From: Mesorhizobium sp. SARCC-RB16n
GTDB lineage: Bacteria > Pseudomonadota > Alphaproteobacteria > Rhizobiales > Rhizobiaceae
Length of the DNA stretch: 48,438 bases
Assembly (NCBI RefSeq): GCF_008520305.1
Contig: NZ_ML703291.1
Coordinates: 1 to 48,438, forward strand
Reading direction: 5' to 3'
Below are positions 4,297 to 16,534 of this stretch, in pieces (position 1 is the first letter of the stretch; every line of letters starts with the position of its first letter). The position numbers and the translations under genes are program-made. The notes under the pieces are model-generated. The model worked only from the letters and a program-made list of their open reading frames with translations, searched no databases and was not told the origin of the DNA.

Positions 4297-5646
4297 ATGT
4301 CTGAAGGCTGGAAATCGACGACGGGCTCATCGACGGGGGGCTCCTGGCGCGCGCGCTGCGGCATCGCGGCGGCGGTGGTGCTCCTGTCGCTCCATGCGGT
4401 GCGGGCCGAAAACACACTCGACAGGGCGCCCGATCCGGACCAGAGCCGTGCCGAATACGAGCAGGTTTCCAAGGAAATAACGCTATCGTCTGAGCGGCTG
4501 GCGAAGCTCGCCGCCGATATCGCTGCGGTCAAAAAGGACCACGCCTCGATCACTGCAGCACTGATCCAGTCGGCGATGACCGAGCAGAAGCTCGGCCAGG
4601 ACATCGAGGATATCGGCGCCAAGCTGGAAGGGCTGAAGGGCCAGCAACAGAAGATCCGCGCCTCGCTGGCGGCGCGGCGCGACGTGCTGGCCGAAGTGCT
4701 GGGAGCTCTGCAGCGCATGGGGCTCAATCCGCCGCCGGCGATCCTGGTCAAGCCGGAGGACGCGCTGTCGTCGGTGCGCAGCGCCATCCTGCTCGGCGCT
4801 GTGGTGCCGGAACTGCGCCAGCAGACCGACAGCCTGTTGGCCGACCTCAAGGAACAAACCCGGGTGACGGCCTCGATCGAGGCCGAACGGGCGCGGCTGA
4901 CGGCGGCGGTCGGCGACCAGACGGCGGAAAAGAAGCGGCTTGGCATGCTGCTGGAAGCCAAACAGAAGCTCGAAGCCGACACGCGGGCCCAGATGGCGGC
5001 CGAGCAGCAGCGTTCCGAGCAATTGGCGGCCAAGGCCAGCAGCCTGAAGGATCTGATCGCCTCGCTCGAAGCGCAGGCCGACAAGACCCGCAAGGCGGCC
5101 GACGCCGCCAAGGCAGCCGATGCGGCAAAGGCCGGCGGCACCGAGCCCGGTGGCGACCAGACGGCGTCGCTGCCGGTGCCCGAAGGCAACAGGTTGACCG
5201 CGGCGGCGCCTTTCTCGGCGCTGCAAGGACAGATCGCCCTGCCGGTCACCGGCCGCATCAAACTCCGGTTTGGCGCCGACGACGGTAACGGCGCCTTGAT
5301 GCTTGGGGACATGGTTGCGACACAATCGGGAGCCATCGTTACCGCGCCGGCGGATGGGAATGTGCTTTATGCGGGGCCTTTTCGCTCCTATGGTCAGCTC
5401 TTGATCCTCAATGCCGGCGACGGTTATCATGTCGTCTTGGCTGGGATGAGCAGAATCAGCGTCGCGACTGGCCAGTCAGTGCTCGCAGGAGAGCCGGTCG
5501 GCGCGATGGGAGAAGCCCGGGTGGCAAGCACCTCGGTTTCGAAGAATGGAAATGCCACGCCGGAGCTCTATGTCGAGTTCCGCAAGGATGGAAAACCCGT
5601 CGATCCGGCCCCATGGTGGGCGGACCGTTTTTCTGGAAGGACGTGA
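4297..5646 (+). CDS. EnvC-like murein hydrolase activator (degenerate LytM/M23 domain)
   Basis: A 449-residue periplasmic protein: N-terminal hydrophobic segment (about 22-37), a long Glu/Lys/Ala-rich coiled coil (about 45-270), a low-complexity Ala/Lys linker, then a C-terminal LytM domain (about 305-430). The LytM fold is recognisable from APADGNVLYAGPFRSYGQ and LILNAGDGYHVVLAG, but the zinc ligands of active M23 peptidases are missing: the first His-x3-Asp is absent and the HxH motif reads LAGMS. EnvC proteins of this type activate cell-division amidases rather than cut peptidoglycan themselves. Followed by ctpA one base after its stop, so the two are very likely co-transcribed. Confidence 0.85.
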   Translation: MSEGWKSTTGSSTGGSWRARCGIAAAVVLLSLHAVRAENTLDRAPDPDQSRAEYEQVSKEITLSSERLAKLAADIAAVKKDHASITAALIQSAMTEQKLGQDIEDIGAKLEGLKGQQQKIRASLAARRDVLAEVLGALQRMGLNPPPAILVKPEDALSSVRSAILLGAVVPELRQQTDSLLADLKEQTRVTASIEAERARLTAAVGDQTAEKKRLGMLLEAKQKLEADTRAQMAAEQQRSEQLAAKASSLKDLIASLEAQADKTRKAADAAKAADAAKAGGTEPGGDQTASLPVPEGNRLTAAAPFSALQGQIALPVTGRIKLRFGADDGNGALMLGDMVATQSGAIVTAPADGNVLYAGPFRSYGQLLILNAGDGYHVVLAGMSRISVATGQSVLAGEPVGAMGEARVASTSVSKNGNATPELYVEFRKDGKPVDPAPWWADRFSGRT

Positions 5647-5647
5647 A

Positions 5648-6979
5648 ATGATGCGGAAACTGTCGCTTCTGTTTGCCGGTGCGCTGATGGGCGCGTCCGC
5701 CATGAGCCTTGTCTATGGCGCACCCGGCTCGGCGGCGAATGCTGCAGGGTCGGAGACCTACAAGCAACTGGCGATCTTCGGCGACATCTTCGAGCGGGTG
5801 CGGGCGCAGTATGTGACCCCGCCCGACGACAAGTCGCTGGTCGAGAACGCCATCAACGGCATGTTGTCCTCGCTCGACCCGCATTCCTCCTACATGAACG
5901 CCGAGCAGGCGCAGGACATGCGCGTGCAGACCAAGGGCGAGTTCGGCGGCCTCGGCATCGAGGTCACCATGGAGAACGACTTGGTCAAGGTGATCACGCC
6001 GATCGACGACACGCCGGCCGCCAAGGCGGGCGTGCTGGCTGGCGACTATATCGCCAAGATCGACGGCGAGGAGGTTCGCGGCCTGACGCTCAACGACGCG
6101 GTCGACAAGATGCGTGGCCTGGTCAATACCCCGATCAAGCTGACCATCCTGCGCCAGGGCGCCGACAAGCCGATCGAGCTGACGGTCGTGCGCGACATCA
6201 TCAAGGTCAAGGCGGTCAAGTTCCGGGTCGAAAACGACATCGGTTACATGAAGATCACTTCCTTCACCGAAAAGACCTATGACGACCTCGAGAATGCCAT
6301 CGACACCATCAAGAAGCAGGTGCCGGACGACAAGCTCAAGGGCTATGTGCTCGACCTGCGCCTGAACCCGGGCGGCCTGCTCGACCAGGCGGTGAGCGTG
6401 TCGGATGCCTTCCTCAAGCGCGGCGAGATCGTCTCGACGCGCGGCCGCGATCCGAAGGACGTCACCCGCTTCGACGCCAAGCCCAAGCAGACCGACGACA
6501 TCAACGGCAAGCCGATGATCGTGCTCGTCAATGGCGGCTCGGCCAGCGCTTCGGAAATCGTCGCCGGCGCGCTGCAGGATCTGCGCCGCGTCACGGTGGT
6601 CGGCACGCAGTCCTTCGGCAAGGGCTCGGTGCAGACCATCATTCCGCTCGGCGAGAATGGCGCGCTCAGGCTGACGACGGCGCTCTATTACACGCCGTCG
6701 GGCAAATCGATCCAGGGCAAGGGCATCACGCCCGATATCAAGGTCGACCAGCCGCTGCCGCCGGAACTGCAGGGCAGGGACCTGACCCGCGGCGAATCCG
6801 ATCTCAAGGGCCATATCAAGGGCGCCGACGAGAGCAAGACCGGTTCCGGCTCGGCCGCCTATGTGCCGCCGGATCCGAAGGACGACCTGCAGCTCATCTA
6901 TGCCGAGCAGCTGCTGCGCGGCCAGAAGACCGATCCGTCCTTCCCGCCCAATCCGGAAAAGGCCGTGCTCAACCAGTAA
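5648..6979 (+). CDS. ctpA: Carboxy-terminal processing protease CtpA, S41 family
   Basis: A periplasmic serine protease that trims protein C-termini. Starting at the ATG at 5648 gives a clean signal peptide (residues 1-22). A PDZ domain lies around 85-170 (GGLGIEVTMEND, GVLAGDYIAKIDGEEV). The S41 catalytic core contains the nucleophile region GGSASASEI (Ser 298-302) and the general-base Lys 325 in SFGKGSVQT. Length (443 aa) is typical. Follows the EnvC-like gene with a one-base gap, as in many alphaproteobacteria, linking peptidoglycan hydrolase control and periplasmic proteolysis. A hairpin terminator follows. Confidence 0.95.
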   Translation: MMRKLSLLFAGALMGASAMSLVYGAPGSAANAAGSETYKQLAIFGDIFERVRAQYVTPPDDKSLVENAINGMLSSLDPHSSYMNAEQAQDMRVQTKGEFGGLGIEVTMENDLVKVITPIDDTPAAKAGVLAGDYIAKIDGEEVRGLTLNDAVDKMRGLVNTPIKLTILRQGADKPIELTVVRDIIKVKAVKFRVENDIGYMKITSFTEKTYDDLENAIDTIKKQVPDDKLKGYVLDLRLNPGGLLDQAVSVSDAFLKRGEIVSTRGRDPKDVTRFDAKPKQTDDINGKPMIVLVNGGSASASEIVAGALQDLRRVTVVGTQSFGKGSVQTIIPLGENGALRLTTALYYTPSGKSIQGKGITPDIKVDQPLPPELQGRDLTRGESDLKGHIKGADESKTGSGSAAYVPPDPKDDLQLIYAEQLLRGQKTDPSFPPNPEKAVLNQ

Positions 6980-8900: not shown

Positions 8901-8972
8901 TCGCTCGCCTCTGGTCGAGATTGCCGCGCCGGTGCGGTGGTCGTATTGAAGGTCGATGCAACGAGGGTCGCC

Positions 8973-10106
8973 ATGAACGACACCGTCAACCGGGCTGCTG
9001 CAAAAACCGTCACCAGCGAGGCGGCAGCCGGAGCGATCCTGACCATCGATCTCGGAGCGATCCGCGAAAACTACCGGCGGCTGAAGGCAAGGCTGGGCGG
9101 CGTGCGCTGCGCCGGCGTTGTCAAGGCCGATGGCTACGGTCTCGGCGCGAGCCAGGTGGCATCGGCGCTGGCGAGAGAAGGCTGCGACGTCTTTTTCGTC
9201 GCGCTGCTGGCCGAAGGCATCGCGCTCCGCAAGGCGATCGGAGCCGGACCTGAGATCTACGTGCTGAACGGACTGCCGCCGGACTCCGAGCCGGAAGCGG
9301 TCGCGTCCAATCTCTGCGCGGTCGTCAACAGTGGCGCGCAGTTGAAAGCCTGGCGCGCGGCGGCACATCGCGTTGGCCGAAAACTTCCGGCCGCTATCCA
9401 AGTCGATAGCGGCATGTCGCGGCTTGGCATGGCGCCAGCCGAAGTCGAGGCGATGGCCGGTGATGCCGCCGCGTTCGACGGTATCGACGTCAGATATGTG
9501 ATGAGCCACCTGGCCTGCGCCGACGAGCCGCACCATCCCGCCAATGAGCAGCAGCGGCTGGCCTTTGAGCGGTTGCGCGCCATGCTGCCCGGGGCGCCCG
9601 CCTCGCTCGCCAATTCCTCCGGCATCTTTCTCGGGCCGCCATACCATTATGATCTCGCTCGCCCGGGCGCCGCGGTCTACGGCATCAATCCGACGCCTGC
9701 TGAGCCCAACCCGATGCTGCCCGTGGTGCGGCTGCAGGCCAAGGTGGCGCAGACGCGTCGCGTCGAAAAAGGCGCCGGCATCGGCTATGGCCATACCTAT
9801 CACGCGGAAGACCCGATGAGCCTGGCGACGATCTCCTTCGGCTATGCGGATGGCTGGCTGCGCCGGTCCGCCTCGGCCGCCTGGTTCGAGGGGGTGCGCC
9901 TGCCCTTCCTCGGACGCGTGTCGATGGATTCGATCATTCTCGACATTTCCGCCCTGCCGCCCGGCAAACTTCGCGAAGGGGATCTCGTCGAACTGCTCGG
10001 TTCTTCGCAAGGCGTCGACGACGCCGCCGGCCATGCGGGCACCATCGGCTACGAAATCCTGGCCAGTCTCGGCACGCGCTTCCACCGGCACTATCTCTGC
10101 AGTTGA
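8973..10106 (+). CDS. alr: Alanine racemase
   Basis: A PLP enzyme interconverting L- and D-alanine, for peptidoglycan synthesis or, paired with DadA, alanine catabolism. The PLP lysine is K51 in GVVKADGYGLGA and the second catalytic residue is the Tyr near 272 in GIGYGHTY. LGRVSMDSIILD and the C-terminal TIGYEILASLGTRFHRHY complete the fold. ATG 8973 has GAGGG upstream; an in-frame GTG at 8937 would add 12 residues. dadA lies 1.4 kb downstream on the same strand with two rnk-like genes between, which suggests alanine use as a nutrient, though a purely biosynthetic role is possible. Confidence 0.95.
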   Translation: MNDTVNRAAAKTVTSEAAAGAILTIDLGAIRENYRRLKARLGGVRCAGVVKADGYGLGASQVASALAREGCDVFFVALLAEGIALRKAIGAGPEIYVLNGLPPDSEPEAVASNLCAVVNSGAQLKAWRAAAHRVGRKLPAAIQVDSGMSRLGMAPAEVEAMAGDAAAFDGIDVRYVMSHLACADEPHHPANEQQRLAFERLRAMLPGAPASLANSSGIFLGPPYHYDLARPGAAVYGINPTPAEPNPMLPVVRLQAKVAQTRRVEKGAGIGYGHTYHAEDPMSLATISFGYADGWLRRSASAAWFEGVRLPFLGRVSMDSIILDISALPPGKLREGDLVELLGSSQGVDDAAGHAGTIGYEILASLGTRFHRHYLCS

Positions 10107-10379: not shown

Positions 10380-10796
10380 ATGCAACATGCAACGGGACTG
10401 CGTCCATCAGCCCAGATTCTAATCAGCGACACCGACCATGACAGGTTGACCGGTCTGGCCAGGACCGTGCTCGACCGCGCGCCCGAGACGGCCGAAGACC
10501 TGCTCGCGGAATTGGACCGGGCGGTGATTGCTGAAGCGGCGGCAATTCCGGCCGGCGTGGTGCGAATGGGGTCGACAATCACGGTTCGCGGTGAAGGCGG
10601 TGACGTCAAGCGCATCACGCTGGTCTATCCAGGCGACGCCGACATTGCCGAAAACCGGATCTCGGTACTGACGCCGATGGGAACGGCGCTTGTCGGCGTC
10701 AGCATCGGGCAGGTGGTGTGCTGGAGCGGCCGCGGCGGCCACAAACTGTCGGTGACCGTGGAGGCCGTCGACATGCCCGCCGACGGCGAGCACTGA
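10380..10796 (+). CDS. Rnk-like nucleoside diphosphate kinase regulator (GreA/GreB C-terminal fold)
   Basis: Rnk proteins bind RNA polymerase through a GreA/GreB-like C-terminal domain and were first named for effects on nucleoside diphosphate kinase. The 138-residue protein has a short helical N-terminus and the FKBP-like domain with VVRMGSTITVRG, RITLVYPGDADI, ISVLTPMGTALVG and GQVVCWSG. That pattern is standard for Rnk, which lacks the long coiled coil of GreA. ATG 10380 has GAGGT six bases upstream; in-frame ATGs at 10356 and 10368 are alternatives. The 270 bp before it hold no convincing gene. Confidence 0.85.
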   Translation: MQHATGLRPSAQILISDTDHDRLTGLARTVLDRAPETAEDLLAELDRAVIAEAAAIPAGVVRMGSTITVRGEGGDVKRITLVYPGDADIAENRISVLTPMGTALVGVSIGQVVCWSGRGGHKLSVTVEAVDMPADGEH

Positions 10797-10810
10797 TCGT
10801 GGAGGCGGTG

Positions 10811-11356
10811 ATGAAAAACGGGAGCTGCCGGCTGACGACGAAGGATTTCGCCGTCCTGGAAGTGATGCTCGAGCGCCGACGGGCCTTCGCGGATCCGATG
10901 GTCCGGATGATCGAAGAGAAGCTTTCCAATGCCGGCGTCGTGCCCATCGAGTCGGTCGAACCCGATATCGTGACGCTGAACAGCCGGGTGGTGTTTTGCG
11001 TCGATGCCGGTGCGGCTGAGACGCGCACCCTCGTGCAGAACGAAGTGCGCGGACCGGTCGGCTCCAGCCTGTCGGTGGCAACCAGGCGCGGCCTGTGCAT
11101 GCTCGGCATGGCGCAAGGCCAGACGGCCTCGCTCGAGCATCCCGACGGCAGGCGCGAATCGATCCGGATCAAGGCGGTGCTCTATCAGCCGGAGGCCGCG
11201 CGGCGGGCAGCCGAGGAAAGAGCGGCCGCTGGTGGACGGCGGCCGCACGGGCTGACCCTCGTCTACAGCGCCGACACTTCTATCCAGCCTCTTGGCGAGA
11301 CGGCAGGAATGCGGCAGACAGAGAGAGACGACGACCCCGGTCCGTCGGCGGCGTGA
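10811..11356 (+). CDS. Second, diverged Rnk-like protein
   Basis: A 181-residue protein, probably paralogous to its upstream neighbour. The N-terminal helix pair (CRLTTKDFAVLEVMLERR) and a degenerate GreA/GreB-like domain (IVTLNSRVVFCVDAG, SLSVATRRGLCMLGMAQGQ) can be aligned, followed by a charged helix rich in Ala/Arg/Glu and a low-complexity tail. The hallmark VYPGDADI strand is not conserved. ATG 10811 is preceded by GGAGG and lies 14 bases after the first rnk-like stop, so the two form an operon. Whether it still contacts RNA polymerase cannot be told from sequence. Confidence 0.75.
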   Translation: MKNGSCRLTTKDFAVLEVMLERRRAFADPMVRMIEEKLSNAGVVPIESVEPDIVTLNSRVVFCVDAGAAETRTLVQNEVRGPVGSSLSVATRRGLCMLGMAQGQTASLEHPDGRRESIRIKAVLYQPEAARRAAEERAAAGGRRPHGLTLVYSADTSIQPLGETAGMRQTERDDDPGPSAA

Positions 11357-11467: not shown

Positions 11468-12727
11468 ATGATGAAGATCATGGTGCTGGGCGGCGGCGTC
11501 ATCGGGGTGACCACGGCCTATTATCTCGCCGAGGCCGGCCATGAGGTGACGGTGGTCGATCGCCAGAAAGGCCCGGCGCTGGAAACCAGTTTCGCCAATG
11601 CCGGCGAGATCTCACCCGGCTATGCCTCGCCCTGGGCCGGACCCGGCATTCCGCTCAAGGCGATCAAATGGTTGTTGATGAAGCATGGCCCGCTGGTGGT
11701 GCGCCCGGCCTTCGACCCGCATATGTGGACCTGGCTGGTCAAGATGCTGCGCAACTGCACCGCCGAGCGCTATGCCGTCAACAAATCACGCATGGTGCCG
11801 CTGGCCGAATACAGCCGCGATACGCTCAAGGCACTGCGCGAAGCGACTGGCATCAGCTATGATGAGCGGACCCAGGGCACGCTGCAGCTGTTCCGCACGC
11901 AAAAGCAGCTCGACGGCACATCAGGCGATGTCGAGGTGTTGAAGAAGTATGGCGTTCCCTACGAGATACTTGACCAGGACGGTTGTATCGGGGCGGAGCC
12001 GGCTTTGGCCGGCGTGCGCGAGAAGTTCGTCGGCGGGCTGAGGCTGCCGCATGACGAGACCGGCGACTGCAAGATGTTCACCGACAAACTGGCCGAGCTC
12101 TGCGTGGCGCGCGGTGTGAAGTTCGAATACGACATGACCATCTGGCGCGTCATCCGCAGCCGCAACCGCATCGCCAATCTCAGCACAAGCAAGGGTTTCA
12201 AGGTCGCCGATGCCTATGTGATGGCGCTGGGCAGCTACTCGGCGGGCTTCATGCGCCGGATGAAGCGGTCTATCCCCGTCTATCCGGTCAAGGGCTATTC
12301 GATCACGGTGCCGATCAAGGATGCCGCCCTGGCGCCGGTGTCGACGGTGATGGACGAGACCTACAAGGTCGCGATCACCCGGCTCGGCGACCGCATCCGC
12401 GTCGGCGGCACGGCCGAGATTTCCGGCTTCGACCTCAGGCTGCACGAATCGCGGCGCCGCACCCTGGAACACTCGATCGGCGATCTCTTTCCGGGCGCCG
12501 GCGCCATGCGCGAGGCGACCTTCTGGTGCGGGCTGCGGCCGATGACGCCGGATGGACCGCCGCTCATCGGCCGCACCGAACTTTCCAACCTCTTTCTCAA
12601 CACCGGCCATGGCACGCTCGGCTGGACCATGGCCTGCGGCTCGGCCAAGGTGCTGTCCGACATCATCTCGAACCGGGTGCCGGATATCGATGTCCGCGCG
12701 CTGGCGCAGGAGCGCTATTTGAAATAG
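11468..12727 (+). CDS. dadA: D-amino acid dehydrogenase small subunit
   Basis: An FAD flavoprotein that oxidises D-alanine (and other D-amino acids) to 2-oxo acids, passing electrons to the respiratory chain at the inner membrane. The N-terminal Rossmann motif is GGGVIG (residues 8-13), followed by the acidic end of strand 2 (TVVDRQ). [22 protein letters not shown] and the C-terminal [17 protein letters not shown] and [17 protein letters not shown] are diagnostic. 419 aa is normal. TAAGGAG precedes the double ATG. Together with alr this forms the L-Ala to D-Ala to pyruvate route. Confidence 0.94.
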
Positions 12728-12768: not shown

Positions 12769-12815
12769 ATACATGTCGCTGCCCAAAACCGGGCTCGCTT
12801 TTGGGCGACATGCAT
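12769..12815. repeat. Dispersed palindromic repeat, copy 2
   Basis: Imperfect palindrome with outer arms ATACATGTCG / CGACATGCAT and inner GCCCAAAA / TTTTGGGC. It is clearly the same family as the element at 3591-3635. It fills the gap between dadA and the convergent phospholipase-D-like gene, whose stop codon (12815-12817) overlaps the repeat edge, so the element may also act as a bidirectional hairpin. Confidence 0.85.
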
Positions 12816-14965
12816 CAGAACGCCTGCCTGACCCACGCCTCGTCGAACAGCAGCCGGTAGGCCCACGGGATCGTCACATCAGTGGAAACCGGGTTCGAGT
12901 GGGCGAGGTAGTCGTCATAGACGGGCTTCATCCTGGCGTAGAAGGCGGGGTCGAGCACCACCATACCGTTCTCCGAATCGTGGAAGAAGCTGCGGTTGTT
13001 GAGGTTGACCGATGAAATGGCGACCAGCCTTTCGTCAATCATCATGATCTTGGAATGCAGCACCACGTCAGGCGCCTTGAATTCGCGGATGTCTATGCGG
13101 TCGCCATATTTCTCGACGAACAGCTTGTTGAGCGCGGTGAGGAACCTGCCGCCGATATCGCCCTTGAGGTCGATGCGGCCGACGATGTCGATCTTGACGC
13201 CACGGGCCAGCGCCCGATCGAAGGCCCGGGCGAGACTGGGGGTCAGATTGAGGTAAGGGTTGACGATCTGGATATGGTGCTGGGCGGCGTCGACGAGCTC
13301 GACGAAATAGGCCTCCAGCGCATGGTCATCCTCATAGGGCACCGAAATGAAATGCCGGGCATTGCCACGGGGATGGCCGCCGGCGCGGACCGGAACGGAG
13401 AAGGGCCGCGCCAGGTTGGTGTCGGCGTCGCGCAGCCATATCGTCGACAGATGCGCGGCGAGCGCCTCGACCGCCGCCCGGTCGGCGAACTCGATGTCGA
13501 AGTCGCTCCAGTTCGAATAATAGTTCAGCGAAAAGCCGTCGGTCTTGCCGTATTGCTCGAGGTCCGGGTAGCGCGACAGATCGATCGGCTGGTGGAAAAG
13601 GAAACCGTCATGGATGTTGCGGCCACCGATGATGACGCGCGAGCGCGCGGGGTCCTGCGCCAGCGTCGCCAGCATCTTGACATGATGGACCTTGTGCAGT
13701 TGTGAAAGCTGCTCGTCGATCGGCGCGCCATGGTCCGCCCGCCAGCGGTATTCCTGCAGCTCGACATTGGGGAACTCGGCCGCCAGCCGGTGCAGCATGG
13801 CGTCGTCCTTGTCGCGCTCCAGCACGTCGGTGACCATGATACGCACCTTGGTGCCAAGCGCTGCATGGTGACGGATCAGCCGTTCGATGATGCGCCCGGA
13901 AAAGTCCGCCTTGAATTCGAGCGATGACAGATAGATCAGCTTCAGCCTTGGCGCCTTCGAGAAATCGAGCGGCAATTCCGGATCGCCCTTGTCTATTGCC
14001 GCATCGGGCAGCGGCGCGCCCATCAGCGCCTCGACCTTGGCGTTGAAGCCGTCGCGCGACTTGCGCAGCAGCCTGGGCTCGCCGATCGGCATGGCGCAGG
14101 TCTGCGACAGCCAGCGGCTGGCATAGAAGGCGCGCTGGAGTGCGTCGAGGCCGGCGGCGGGCACCGGGCAGCGCTGGTAGCGGCTGTCCAAGCTGGCAAG
14201 CGCCGGGTCGGCGGTCTCTTCGCGCCGGATGGTGAGCGGCGCGCCGGTGGGCGCAAGGCTGGAGCGGATCCTTGCCGTGCACCGGTTCAGGCTGTCGCCG
14301 GGGAACAGGCTGACTGTGTCGTCCTCGCCGGACAGGCGAAAGCGGAATGCCGCGCCAGCGGCAATGGTGCGTGAGGTTCCGGCGGCGCGGATCGCCAATG
14401 CGCCGTCGCAACTGCCCTCGATATCGGCCGGCTGCCTGCCTGCCTGCCGCACGACGATCTCGGTGCTGCGTGCCTGCAAGCCGGAGAAATCGAAAATCTT
14501 GGGTGCCGAGAGCCGCGCCGCCGCATCGACGTAGAGCGTCTGTCGCGACACCCGCCAGCGGCCGTCGAAATGGCCGTCGCCGCCGCTGCTGCCGGCGGGC
14601 TGCACACGCGCACTGGCGACCGGTCCGGCCAGTTGCAGTAGCGTCGAATATGTCGCCTGGAAGTCGCGGTTCTGGACATCGCGGCGGTTGCGACCGAACG
14701 GGCCGGTGCCGTTGGCACGGTCCATGGCGCCGAGCTGGTTGTTGGCGAGCAGCGCCAGGAACCGTCTTTCGTAGTCGCTGTCGCCGGCATTGCCGAAGAA
14801 CTGCGCCGCCGCGACCCGCGGCCCGGGCGTGACCGCCGACAGGGAGGGCCGCGCGCAAGCCTCCTGTCCCGCCAGGAGGTCGCAGGCATCGCGGCCCGCA
14901 CCGGCACAACCGGCAAGGGCGACAAGCCCGAACAGGGCGAGGATGATGGCCGTGCGGCTATTCAC
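12815..14965 (-). CDS. Phospholipase-D-like lipoprotein with two HKD motifs
   Basis: A 717-residue predicted lipoprotein. Starting at GTG 14965 gives a signal peptide with lipobox LAGC and lipidated Cys 20. Residues 25-330 form an N-terminal region I do not recognise. The C-terminal half is a PLD-superfamily domain with two HxK motifs, HVKMLATL near residue 426 (followed by GGRNIHDG) and HSKIMMIDERLVAISSVNLN near 634. Paired HKD motifs form one active site for phosphodiester transfer or hydrolysis, as in cardiolipin-synthase-like and PLD enzymes. The GTG overlaps the stop of the upstream PLA2-like gene (GTGA), so translation is coupled. The substrate, presumably envelope phospholipid, is an inference. 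Confidence 0.85.
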   Translation of the reverse strand: MNSRTAIILALFGLVALAGCAGAGRDACDLLAGQEACARPSLSAVTPGPRVAAAQFFGNAGDSDYERRFLALLANNQLGAMDRANGTGPFGRNRRDVQNRDFQATYSTLLQLAGPVASARVQPAGSSGGDGHFDGRWRVSRQTLYVDAAARLSAPKIFDFSGLQARSTEIVVRQAGRQPADIEGSCDGALAIRAAGTSRTIAAGAAFRFRLSGEDDTVSLFPGDSLNRCTARIRSSLAPTGAPLTIRREETADPALASLDSRYQRCPVPAAGLDALQRAFYASRWLSQTCAMPIGEPRLLRKSRDGFNAKVEALMGAPLPDAAIDKGDPELPLDFSKAPRLKLIYLSSLEFKADFSGRIIERLIRHHAALGTKVRIMVTDVLERDKDDAMLHRLAAEFPNVELQEYRWRADHGAPIDEQLSQLHKVHHVKMLATLAQDPARSRVIIGGRNIHDGFLFHQPIDLSRYPDLEQYGKTDGFSLNYYSNWSDFDIEFADRAAVEALAAHLSTIWLRDADTNLARPFSVPVRAGGHPRGNARHFISVPYEDDHALEAYFVELVDAAQHHIQIVNPYLNLTPSLARAFDRALARGVKIDIVGRIDLKGDIGGRFLTALNKLFVEKYGDRIDIREFKAPDVVLHSKIMMIDERLVAISSVNLNNRSFFHDSENGMVVLDPAFYARMKPVYDDYLAHSNPVSTDVTIPWAYRLLFDEAWVRQAF

Positions 14966-15405
14966 CCGGCGGCTCCGACCTTCACGGCACTCAGCTGCGC
15001 CGGATCGCGCGGCGGCATGAAACCTTGCGGAAAAACCTTGCAGATAGGAATAGCGAAGGTGGCGATCAGCAGTTCCGCCTCGCTGCGCATCTTGCGGGGC
15101 GCCGTCTTGTCGTCGCGGATTGCCGTCGCCGAGGCGACAAGGGCGCCGTCGCAGTCGCAATGGTTGCGGCGGGCGATGTAGCAGGCGTCATGGGTTCGGC
15201 AAACGGCGTCGAGGCGGTCGACCGGCCGGGCCGACAGATCGCCGGTGCGGGTGCCGGGACCGCAGTAATTGCCGATGACGAAAGGCGAGGCGCGCGCCAT
15301 GGCGTAGCGGATCGGTTTGGGCAATTCGGCTTCCGGCACTTTTGTCCATGGGTTGGCGCATGCGGAGACGAACAGCAGGGTCAGGATGGCAAGAACGGCT
15401 CGCAT
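14962..15405 (-). CDS. Phospholipase-A2-like lipoprotein
   Basis: A 147-residue predicted lipoprotein: ATG 15405, hydrophobic signal, lipobox VSAC with Cys 16. The mature part carries the features of secreted phospholipase A2: a calcium-loop-like GNYCGPGT (45-52), the catalytic His72-Asp73 in VCRTHDACY (68-76), and CDCD (83-86) where Asp86 matches the second catalytic Asp of PLA2. Cysteines 48, 69, 75, 83, 85 and 122 could form disulphides. PLA2 releases the sn-2 fatty acid of phospholipids. The gene is first in an operon with the PLD-like lipoprotein, overlapping it by four bases. Function is inferred from motifs only; bacterial PLA2-like lipoproteins are little studied. Confidence 0.75.
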   Translation of the reverse strand: MRAVLAILTLLFVSACANPWTKVPEAELPKPIRYAMARASPFVIGNYCGPGTRTGDLSARPVDRLDAVCRTHDACYIARRNHCDCDGALVASATAIRDDKTAPRKMRSEAELLIATFAIPICKVFPQGFMPPRDPAQLSAVKVGAAG

Positions 15406-15554
15406 GTCTATCCGCGCCAGCTTTCTGAAAGATTTCCCCACCCGGCGCGCCCACTCCATGGCCGGCGACCGGTGATGCCACACTGGCTGGTTTTGTGGCA
15501 AGGAAAAGGCTGCGTGTTGGGGGGCCTCGCCGTGTTTTTGCCGTGACGGCGCTT

Positions 15555-16436
15555 CTACAGGAAGAGGCCCCGCTCCCGCTCAACCGCTTTGGTAATGAAG
15601 CTGGCGACGATCTGGACGCGACGCAGCGGCCTGACCGATTCGTGATAGACCAGCCAATAGGCGCGACGGATTGGCGCGACCATATCGACGGCCACCAATT
15701 CCGGCATGGAGCGGGCGACGAAGGTGTGCAGGATGCCGATGCCGGCGCCCGAGCGTACGGCTTCGGCCTGGCCGAGCGCCGAGGAGATGGCGAAGCTGGT
15801 GCGCCAGTCCGCGCTGAATTCCGCGGCGTAGTCGAGTGAAGGACTGACTATGAGGTCCGGCACATAGCCGATGAGGGTGTGCTGGCCGAGTTCGGCGGCG
15901 GTTTTGGGCAGGCCATTGGCTTCGGCGTAGGCGCACGACGCGAACAGGCCGAGCGAATAGTCGACCAGCTTTCCCGCCACCAGCCGGCCTTCGGTCGGCC
16001 GCTCGACGGTGATCGCGATATCGGCTTCGCGCCGGGATAGGGAGAAGGAGCGCGGCACCGGCACGAGCTGGATGGTGAGTTCGCGGTGAAGGGCGGTGAG
16101 TTCGCCCAGGCGCTTTGCCAGGAAGGCAACGCCGAAGCCATCGGGTGCGCCGATGCGCACGGTTCCGGACACGTCATCTCCTTCGCCTGATATGGTCGAG
16201 CGGGCGGCGATCATGTCGCCCTCCATGCGCTCGGCGATGTCGAGGAAGCGCTCCCCGGCCGGCGTCAGCTCGCTGCCGGTGGTCAGCCGGCGGAAGAGTT
16301 TCGTCCTCAGGGCTTCCTCGAGGGCCGCGATGCGGCGCGAGACGGTGGCATGGTTGAGCTCCAGCCGCCGCGCGGCGCCAAGGATCTGGCCGGCGCGCGC
16401 CACTGCGAGGAAGATGCGGACGTCATCCCAGTTCAT
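15555..16436 (-). CDS. LysR-family transcriptional regulator
   Basis: A DNA-binding regulator of 293 aa from ATG 16436 (GGAG seven bases upstream); an upstream in-frame start at 16463 would add nine residues. The winged helix-turn-helix occupies residues 1-60 (DDVRIFLAVARAGQILGAARRL, NHATVSRRIAALEEAL), followed by the linker helix and an effector-binding domain of the periplasmic-binding-protein fold (VRIGAPDGFGVAFL). It diverges from mmsA, which by the usual LysR arrangement makes mmsA a likely target. The PLA2-PLD operon downstream on the same strand starts 150 bp after its stop. The effector is unknown. Confidence 0.9.
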   Translation of the reverse strand: MNWDDVRIFLAVARAGQILGAARRLELNHATVSRRIAALEEALRTKLFRRLTTGSELTPAGERFLDIAERMEGDMIAARSTISGEGDDVSGTVRIGAPDGFGVAFLAKRLGELTALHRELTIQLVPVPRSFSLSRREADIAITVERPTEGRLVAGKLVDYSLGLFASCAYAEANGLPKTAAELGQHTLIGYVPDLIVSPSLDYAAEFSADWRTSFAISSALGQAEAVRSGAGIGILHTFVARSMPELVAVDMVAPIRRAYWLVYHESVRPLRRVQIVASFITKAVERERGLFL

Positions 16437-16534
16437 GGGGAGGCTCCGGATGACATTCGTCAACGCCGCGTTATGTGGCGCGCGAGTGAACTCAACTTAA
16501 CAATTCCAGCGAGAGGTGAGCATACCCTATCATT

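Follow-up and report, generated by a model that had tools for sequence, protein, structure and literature searches.

An overlapping pair of phospholipase-like genes with lipoprotein signals in Mesorhizobium

A stretch of 48,438 nt of contig NZ_ML703291.1 from the soil bacterium Mesorhizobium sp. SARCC-RB16n, called the window here and analysed as a whole, carries two overlapping genes on its minus strand; coordinates are those of the window unless another locus is named. The upstream gene encodes P0001, a small protein which resembles secreted phospholipase A2 (PLA2), and the downstream gene encodes P0002, a larger protein of the phospholipase D (PLD) superfamily. Both proteins start with a lipoprotein signal. 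An initial annotation of this DNA had described them as a coupled module of PLA2-like and PLD-like lipoproteins, and the pairing and the overlap in related genomes support that description. The pair is common across the genus, where the two genes have nearly always been retained or lost together.

The two genes and their products

The two genes and the motifs within them are located as follows.

14962..15405, minus strand: gene for the predicted PLA2-like lipoprotein P0001, ATG start, 147 aa
15358..15369, minus strand: PLA2 lipobox VSAC, residues 13-16, from the sequence
15250..15270, minus strand: calcium-loop-like NYCGPGT, residues 46-52, from motif and alignment
15187..15192, minus strand: His72-Asp73 dyad, from motif and alignment
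15148..15150, minus strand: Asp86 in CxCD, the second candidate catalytic acid, from motif and alignment
14962..14965, minus strand: GTGA overlap of the P0001 stop and the P0002 start, with an NTGA form in 68/70 loci
12815..14965, minus strand: gene for the predicted PLD-superfamily lipoprotein P0002, GTG start, 716 aa
14906..14917, minus strand: PLD lipobox LAGC, residues 17-20, from the sequence
13961..14905, minus strand: PLD N-terminal region, residues 21-335, without a known match; Cys 28, 37, 186, 229, 266 and 290 are conserved
13616..13684, minus strand: PLD motif 1, HxK...GGRN, residues 428-450, without Asp
13004..13057, minus strand: PLD motif 2, HSKIMMIDERLVAISSVN, residues 637-654, complete

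The sequence contains everything that the initial annotation had listed: the GTGA overlap at 14962-14965, both lipoboxes, NYCGPGT, CRTHDACY, CDCD, and two HxK motifs of the PLD superfamily, the first without its Asp and the second complete. The stretch of some 300 residues which it had called unrecognised keeps that name, as no PDB sequence matched the N-terminal region of P0002 better than E 0.77. A lipobox before a cysteine, the mark of a bacterial lipoprotein, is present in both proteins of the window (VSAC and LAGC). Outside the lipobox P0001 has six cysteines (48, 69, 75, 83, 85 and 122), invariant in the 37 rows of its alignment. P0002 also has six (28, 37, 186, 229, 266 and 290), invariant in 19 rows; over 33 rows C186, C229, C266 and C290 are invariant, and C28 and C37 are kept at 90% or more. 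Lipobox signals with six conserved cysteines per protein are as expected outside the cytoplasm, and both proteins are predicted to be lipidated and located in the envelope.

Judged by its motifs and alignment, P0001 is quite probably an enzyme of the PLA2 class. The alignment of its family (A4) has 37 rows, six of them distant relatives at 28-34% identity, and residues N46, C48, G49, G51, L65, D66, C69, H72, D73, C75, C83, C85, L89, A110 and C122 are invariant throughout. Among these, C48, G49, G51, H72 and D73 make up the CGxG calcium loop and the His-Asp dyad that a secreted PLA2 requires. P0001 matches Pfam PF00068 with E 1.9e-5 and 25.6 bits, under the 32.1 cut-off, and PF08398 with E 2.3e-4, likewise below cut-off. 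All 37 members of the alignment also match PF00068 (E<=0.01), so that the PLA2 landmarks named in the initial annotation are more than chance. CDCD, which had been counted among them, holds up at its last residue and not at its first Asp: D86 is kept in 68/68 readable copies (the 69th copy is an assembly gap), and 8 of the same 68 have Ala or Gly in place of D84. D86 is the candidate catalytic acid because it is kept while D84 varies, in agreement with the Asp86 named in the initial annotation. The CxCD of P0001 resembles that of solved PLA2s, but the aligner scored that segment below zero.

P0001 shares with the secreted PLA2 superfamily (PF00068, PF08398 and PF05826) the CGxG calcium-loop-like stretch, the HD dyad, a candidate CxCD acid, an abundance of cysteine and an export signal. 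It differs in the short spacing of 14 residues between His72 and Asp86, in the lipoprotein signal, in scores below the Pfam cut-off, and in having a gene coupled to a PLD gene. TtaP, a small bacterial PLA2 of the typhoid toxin islet compared here together with group XIV PLA2, has a comparable layout: H is followed directly by D, and a further D comes 15 residues after the H (H70/D85), a spacing close to the 14 of P0001. Its D85A mutant is inactive, according to the excerpted text of PMC11525133. Unlike P0001, TtaP is given in that excerpt as a DUF1353 protein with no overt signal sequence; P0001 has no match to DUF1353 at E<=1.

Across 69 PLA2 copies the lipobox reads VSAC in 25, LSDC in 16, LSAC in 12, LSGC in 11 and other forms in 5. 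An Asp at the -1 position of the lipobox may alter processing. Other PLA2-like proteins are encoded on plasmids of Methylobacterium and Gram-positive bacteria (20 plasmid records), with 33-48% identity to P0001 over 33-73%, and many of them are annotated 'phospholipase A2 family protein'. Small exported PLA2-like proteins form a family in g88, a genus of the order (for example L119, L120 and L124), and on Methylobacterium plasmids, some members having Asn at the second catalytic Asp. A genome can have several matches to this family, with 6 in G397. A viral contig (L195:3872-4312) encodes a PLA2-like domain with NYCGPGT and HD, in what we take to be a parvovirus-like layout.

P0002 is probably a PLD that acts on lipid. 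Its LAGC lipobox is followed by about 315 residues without a recognised domain and then by two PLD halves, which match Pfam PLDc_2 with E 2.7e-18 and 66.5 bits, above the cut-off of 27; 33/33 members of its alignment A5 also match PLDc_2 at E<=0.01. In 14 rows which reach down to 28% identity, C186, C229, C266, C290, H428, K430 and GGRN447-450 are invariant. The same is true of H637, K639, D644, S652 and N654, which form the HxKx4D...(G/S)xN pattern of motif 2, and of R658, S659, F660, D663 and E665. Two HxK motifs, SxN and the RSF..DxE stretch are common to P0002 and the PLD superfamily with its cardiolipin synthases (PF13091, TIGR04265). What sets P0002 apart from them is the cysteine-bearing N-terminal region, the lipobox, a motif 1 without Asp, and scores below the equivalog cut-offs.

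P0002 could instead be a transferase, similar to cardiolipin or phosphatidylserine synthases, or a nuclease, in which case the two proteins would not degrade one lipid jointly. It has weak profile matches to phosphatidylserine synthase, cardiolipin synthase, the nucleases Nuc and NucT, and DISARM DrmC, which point in this direction. But the matches stay far below the curated cut-offs: the serine transferase profile gives 46.7 bits where 314 are required, cardiolipin synthase TIGR04265 gives 43.4 against 290, and DrmC NF038319 gives 41.2 against an NCBIfam cut-off of 133. The best PDB profile match, 7e0m, is named a phospholipase, and members of the family have lipid enzymes as partners in two settings. 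A transferase or nuclease seems unlikely, though it deserves weight. A role for P0002 as a defence-system protein was rejected, given how far the DrmC matches fall under their cut-off.

In two settings, the Mesorhizobium pair and plasmid pBdHAGR1 of Bdellovibrio sp. HAGR004 (L238:7851-11644), members of the PLD family lie right next to lipid enzymes, which are of opposite sense. The PLD relative on this plasmid, P0003, shares one base (TAATG) with the next gene, and both genes are annotated hypothetical; the partner protein combines an acyltransferase domain of the PlsC type (E 2.3e-12) with a condensation domain. P0003 is of the same family as P0002 (28% identity, with the four cysteines that are invariant in 14 rows) and has a lipid-enzyme partner as well, whereas this partner is an acyltransferase/condensation protein, the overlap is a single base, and the signal is not a lipobox. 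The lipid-enzyme neighbours in two settings are the best evidence that the PLD acts on lipid, with one Bdellovibrio record behind the second setting. The Bdellovibrio genes are possibly a lipid-recycling pair of the predator.

The PLD family is rare, and its members appear to be exported. It was found at E<=1e-25 in 10/397 genomes of the order (7 of the genus) and 1/385 of the class, and at E<=1e-20 in 11/398 genomes of the phylum, two of these being partial PLDc matches.

Pairing and history across genomes

Presence was counted in 90 genomes of the window's genus, taken from 150 related genomes. A named set of 70 loci with a P0002 relative was used alongside; it overlaps the genome set in species, so the two are not independent. 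A PLA2 match was found in 59 of the 90 genomes (in G040 it is a scrap) and a near full-length P0002 match in 57 (in G068 a contig end truncates it). In each of these 57 a PLA2 match stands directly upstream, in the same orientation and on one contig with the PLD, and -1 to 41 bp separate the two matches; one of them, G002, has a frame break which puts the PLA2 N-terminus in another frame. G020 has a PLA2 with a broken PLD, the remaining 32/90 are without a whole copy of either gene, and none of the 90 has a full-length PLD without a PLA2 match.

The named set gives a similar picture, with 69/70 loci paired and a 41% relative in a Rhodobacteraceae metagenome-assembled genome (MAG) as the exception. 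Among the 69 paired loci, the PLA2 is interrupted by an assembly gap in L190 and by a frame break in L153, and the PLD of L194 has an internal deletion. PLD matches are short at the C-terminus in L160 and L182, the latter at a contig end. When the window and 69 loci are taken together, the PLD start codon lies in a -1 NTGA overlap in 68 of the 70 (GTGA in 42, ATGA in 25, TTGA in 1), and the overlap is missing only in L190 and L194. This arrangement suggests that the two genes are translationally coupled. The pair was also found in G418, from another genus of the same family. There the overlap is ATGA, a LysR gene lies upstream, and a Rieske oxygenase gene takes the place that dadA has downstream; this occurrence could point to an older origin of the pair or to a transfer. 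The initial annotation had staked its proposal on the pairing not being unique to one strain, and the pair is indeed genus-wide and present in a second genus.

Two envelope enzymes might also have come to share a transcription unit by chance of ancestry, being coupled without a shared substrate. The PLA2-like and PLD families each occur without the other elsewhere, as this would have it, but an overlap kept in 68/70 loci, the loss of the pair as a unit, and a second genus which has the pair with a different downstream gene make such a coincidence improbable.

The history of the pair was read from the genes on either side of it.

15555-16463, minus strand: LysR gene, upstream of the pair
11468-12727, plus strand: dadA, downstream of the pair and convergent with it

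LysR is kept in 31/31 genomes of the genus without a PLA2 match. From these pair-less genomes 30 loci were recovered; dadA is within 1.5 kb of LysR in 24 of them, and short PLD scraps are left at the same place in 4 (G048, G029, G035 and G060). On a tree built from 100 LysR genes, of which 70 come from loci with the pair and 30 from loci that lack it, the trait requires 13 changes; branches with good support force at least 12 of them, and shuffling gives a mean of 26. Because the deepest branches of this tree are without the pair, we take its history to be a single gain and about 12 losses. This reading depends on midpoint rooting and on the tree of one gene, and recombination at the locus could inflate the change count. 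The patchy loss makes the pair an accessory trait. In the same tree the window's LysR is nested among LysR genes of Mesorhizobium pair loci; the best P0002 relative has 92% identity, and 66/70 of the named loci with a P0002 relative are titled Mesorhizobium.

Both genes are under purifying selection, the PLD gene less so than its neighbours. The median ratio of nonsynonymous to synonymous substitution rates (dN/dS) against the window copy is 0.126 for PLA2 and 0.218 for PLD (68 pairs each), compared with 0.061 for LysR (99 pairs), 0.147 for dadA (87) and 0.109 for an aldehyde dehydrogenase gene (94), where all pairs share the window copy and so are not independent. The GC content at third codon positions of the P0001 and P0002 genes resembles that of three neighbour genes.

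Phage and plasmid origins were both considered and rejected. A search of 50,697 phage records gave nothing for P0002 at E<=1e-15, and no match to it was confirmed in viral contigs; for P0001, one viral contig has a 33-residue match. Among plasmid records at E<=1e-20, only the distant Bdellovibrio one carries a P0002 relative.

A possible role in taking phospholipids apart

Altogether, the motifs and the distribution of the genes lead us to a reading which we hold with about even confidence: the pair may be an accessory, envelope-anchored module that cleaves phospholipids for scavenging or remodelling. The two-gene operon would yield two envelope lipoproteins that take phospholipids apart, and translational coupling would keep both proteins in step. 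The PLA2-like protein would bind calcium through the NYCGPGT loop and Asp73, and would hydrolyse the sn-2 acyl ester with His72 and Asp86. In the PLD-like protein the two HxK motifs would form a phospho-histidine intermediate, and the head group would be removed. Their joint action on one lipid would give lysophosphatidic acid, a free fatty acid and a head group such as choline or ethanolamine, and these products of exogenous or mislocalised phospholipid would be reused. That the two proteins share a lipid substrate, and serve scavenging or remodelling, is something we infer purely from their association. There is a precedent in the use of phosphatidylcholine by an organism with three PLDs, as described in the excerpt of PMC4574555.

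Several observations weigh against this reading. The PF00068 and PF08398 scores of P0001 are sub-threshold, as given above. Asp86 is replaced by Asn (three cases) or His (one case) in 4/6 distant exported PLA2-like relatives of the same order, so that it is not universal. An Asp stands directly before the lipobox cysteine in 17/69 PLA2 copies (LSDC in 16, LADC in 1); Asp is unusual there and fits a lipobox poorly, which makes lipidation of the PLA2 less sure in those 17 copies. Position 435 of P0002, where we presume a full HKD motif would carry its Asp, is Leu in 33/33 rows of A5, leaving motif 1 incomplete. No PLA2-like frame was found in stretches of 12-18 kb around five distant PLD members (G102, G175, the Rhodobacteraceae MAG, G1108 and the Bdellovibrio plasmid). 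The chromosomal neighbours that were scanned are not phospholipid genes, and uptake of the products is an assumption of the proposed mechanism.

A rather unlikely variant places the target in the outer membrane of the cell itself, where the module would serve quality control or remodelling of phospholipids in the wrong leaflet, and not scavenging. Both proteins look like envelope lipoproteins and neither has an Asp right after its lipobox cysteine, an absence which by the E. coli rule favours the outer membrane. But the LysR tree calls for about 12 losses of the pair, while LysR stays in every pair-less genome and dadA mostly stays close to it, and a pair so often lost while LysR and dadA stay does not look like a core envelope function.

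A long shot is a relay which builds lipids in the envelope. A lysophospholipid from the PLA2 (for example lysophosphatidylglycerol) would be the acceptor for transphosphatidylation by the PLD-like protein, giving lysocardiolipin- or bis(monoacylglycero)phosphate-like lipids, and the acyltransferase partner in Bdellovibrio would be the reacylating counterpart.

If the phospholipid-cleaving module is real, a genus of plant symbionts has in its envelope a dedicated device linking PLA2-type and PLD-type activity on one lipid. It would offer a genetic handle on how rhizobia deal with phospholipids outside the cytoplasm, with pair-less relatives in the genus as natural controls. It would also define a small uncharacterised PLD family with an unfamiliar N-terminal region, and bring bacterial lipoproteins into the range of PLA2-like enzymes. 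No paper on a PLA2-like/PLD-like lipoprotein pair was found in searches of an open-access library, as judged partly from the top of long results, by title and abstract opening. Both superfamilies are already known.

Surroundings of the pair

Upstream of the pair lies an inverted repeat, and further genes of the window stand on the far side of dadA.

15476..15500, minus strand: dyad TGCCACA-N11-TGTGGCA, separated by 71 bp (nearer end) from the PLA2 start downstream of it
8937-10106: alr
5546-6979: S41 peptidase gene

The exact dyad is present in 40/70 paired loci (18/34 of those with LysR more than 700 bp away and 22/36 of the others) and in 0/30 pair-less LysR loci. Six genomes were searched with at most one mismatch: five have a single exact site each, at the pair, G037 has none, and one further one-mismatch site is in G022. 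A reversed control pattern gave 1 or 2 sites in 3/6 genomes. Within the window, with 3 mismatches allowed, there are 2 matches (both strands of one site) against 0.98 expected, which is not above chance. It is conservation at this place and absence of the exact dyad from the 30 pair-less LysR loci that point to an operator- or promoter-like element accompanying the pair. LysR may be the pair's own regulator: it stays in the 31 pair-less genomes, yet a LysR gene adjoins the pair in G418 also.

In 37/70 paired loci a divergent frame of about 190 aa, apparently exported and in some cases partial, lies between LysR and PLA2 (examples are L164:2709-3278 and L161:3789-4358, both minus strand). It is whole or partial in 6/30 pair-less loci, full length in 4 of them, and absent from the window and from G418; the two copies scanned had no Pfam match. 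As an obligate third member of the module it was rejected, being in 37/70 paired loci only, absent from the window, and present in 6/30 pair-less loci.

This frame bears on one more explanation, that the proteins are surface-displayed phospholipases which damage the membranes of a competitor, predator or host on contact. PLA2 and PLD activities can both harm membranes, the distribution is patchy and accessory, and the protein of about 190 aa could in principle protect the producer. But its absence from the window and its full-length copies in pair-less loci indicate that it is not tied to the pair, and the two lipoboxes favour anchored proteins. In the window, LysR and dadA are the pair's immediate neighbours, and between them there is neither an immunity-like nor a secretion gene. 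This speaks mildly against the competitor as target, which the initial annotation had named beside the host and the cell's own envelope, and makes a weapon less likely. We consider a contact weapon improbable. A type VI lipase effector with its immunity gene does not fit the window either, where the pair is flanked by LysR and dadA; in other loci, additional genes of varying kind are present.

In all but five loci fewer than 250 bp separate PLD from dadA (the sequence of L182 stops short of dadA). Between these two genes L157 has a TacA-type antitoxin/GNAT gene pair (L157:7115-7872, minus strand; scanned), with similar frames in L158, and L154 has an AraC-type regulator and a flavin adenine dinucleotide (FAD) oxidoreductase gene. 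In the window, alr and dadA flank a 212-aa frame at 10718-11356; it matches no Pfam family at E<=1e-8, yet has matches of 53-92% identity in 7/20 compared regions.

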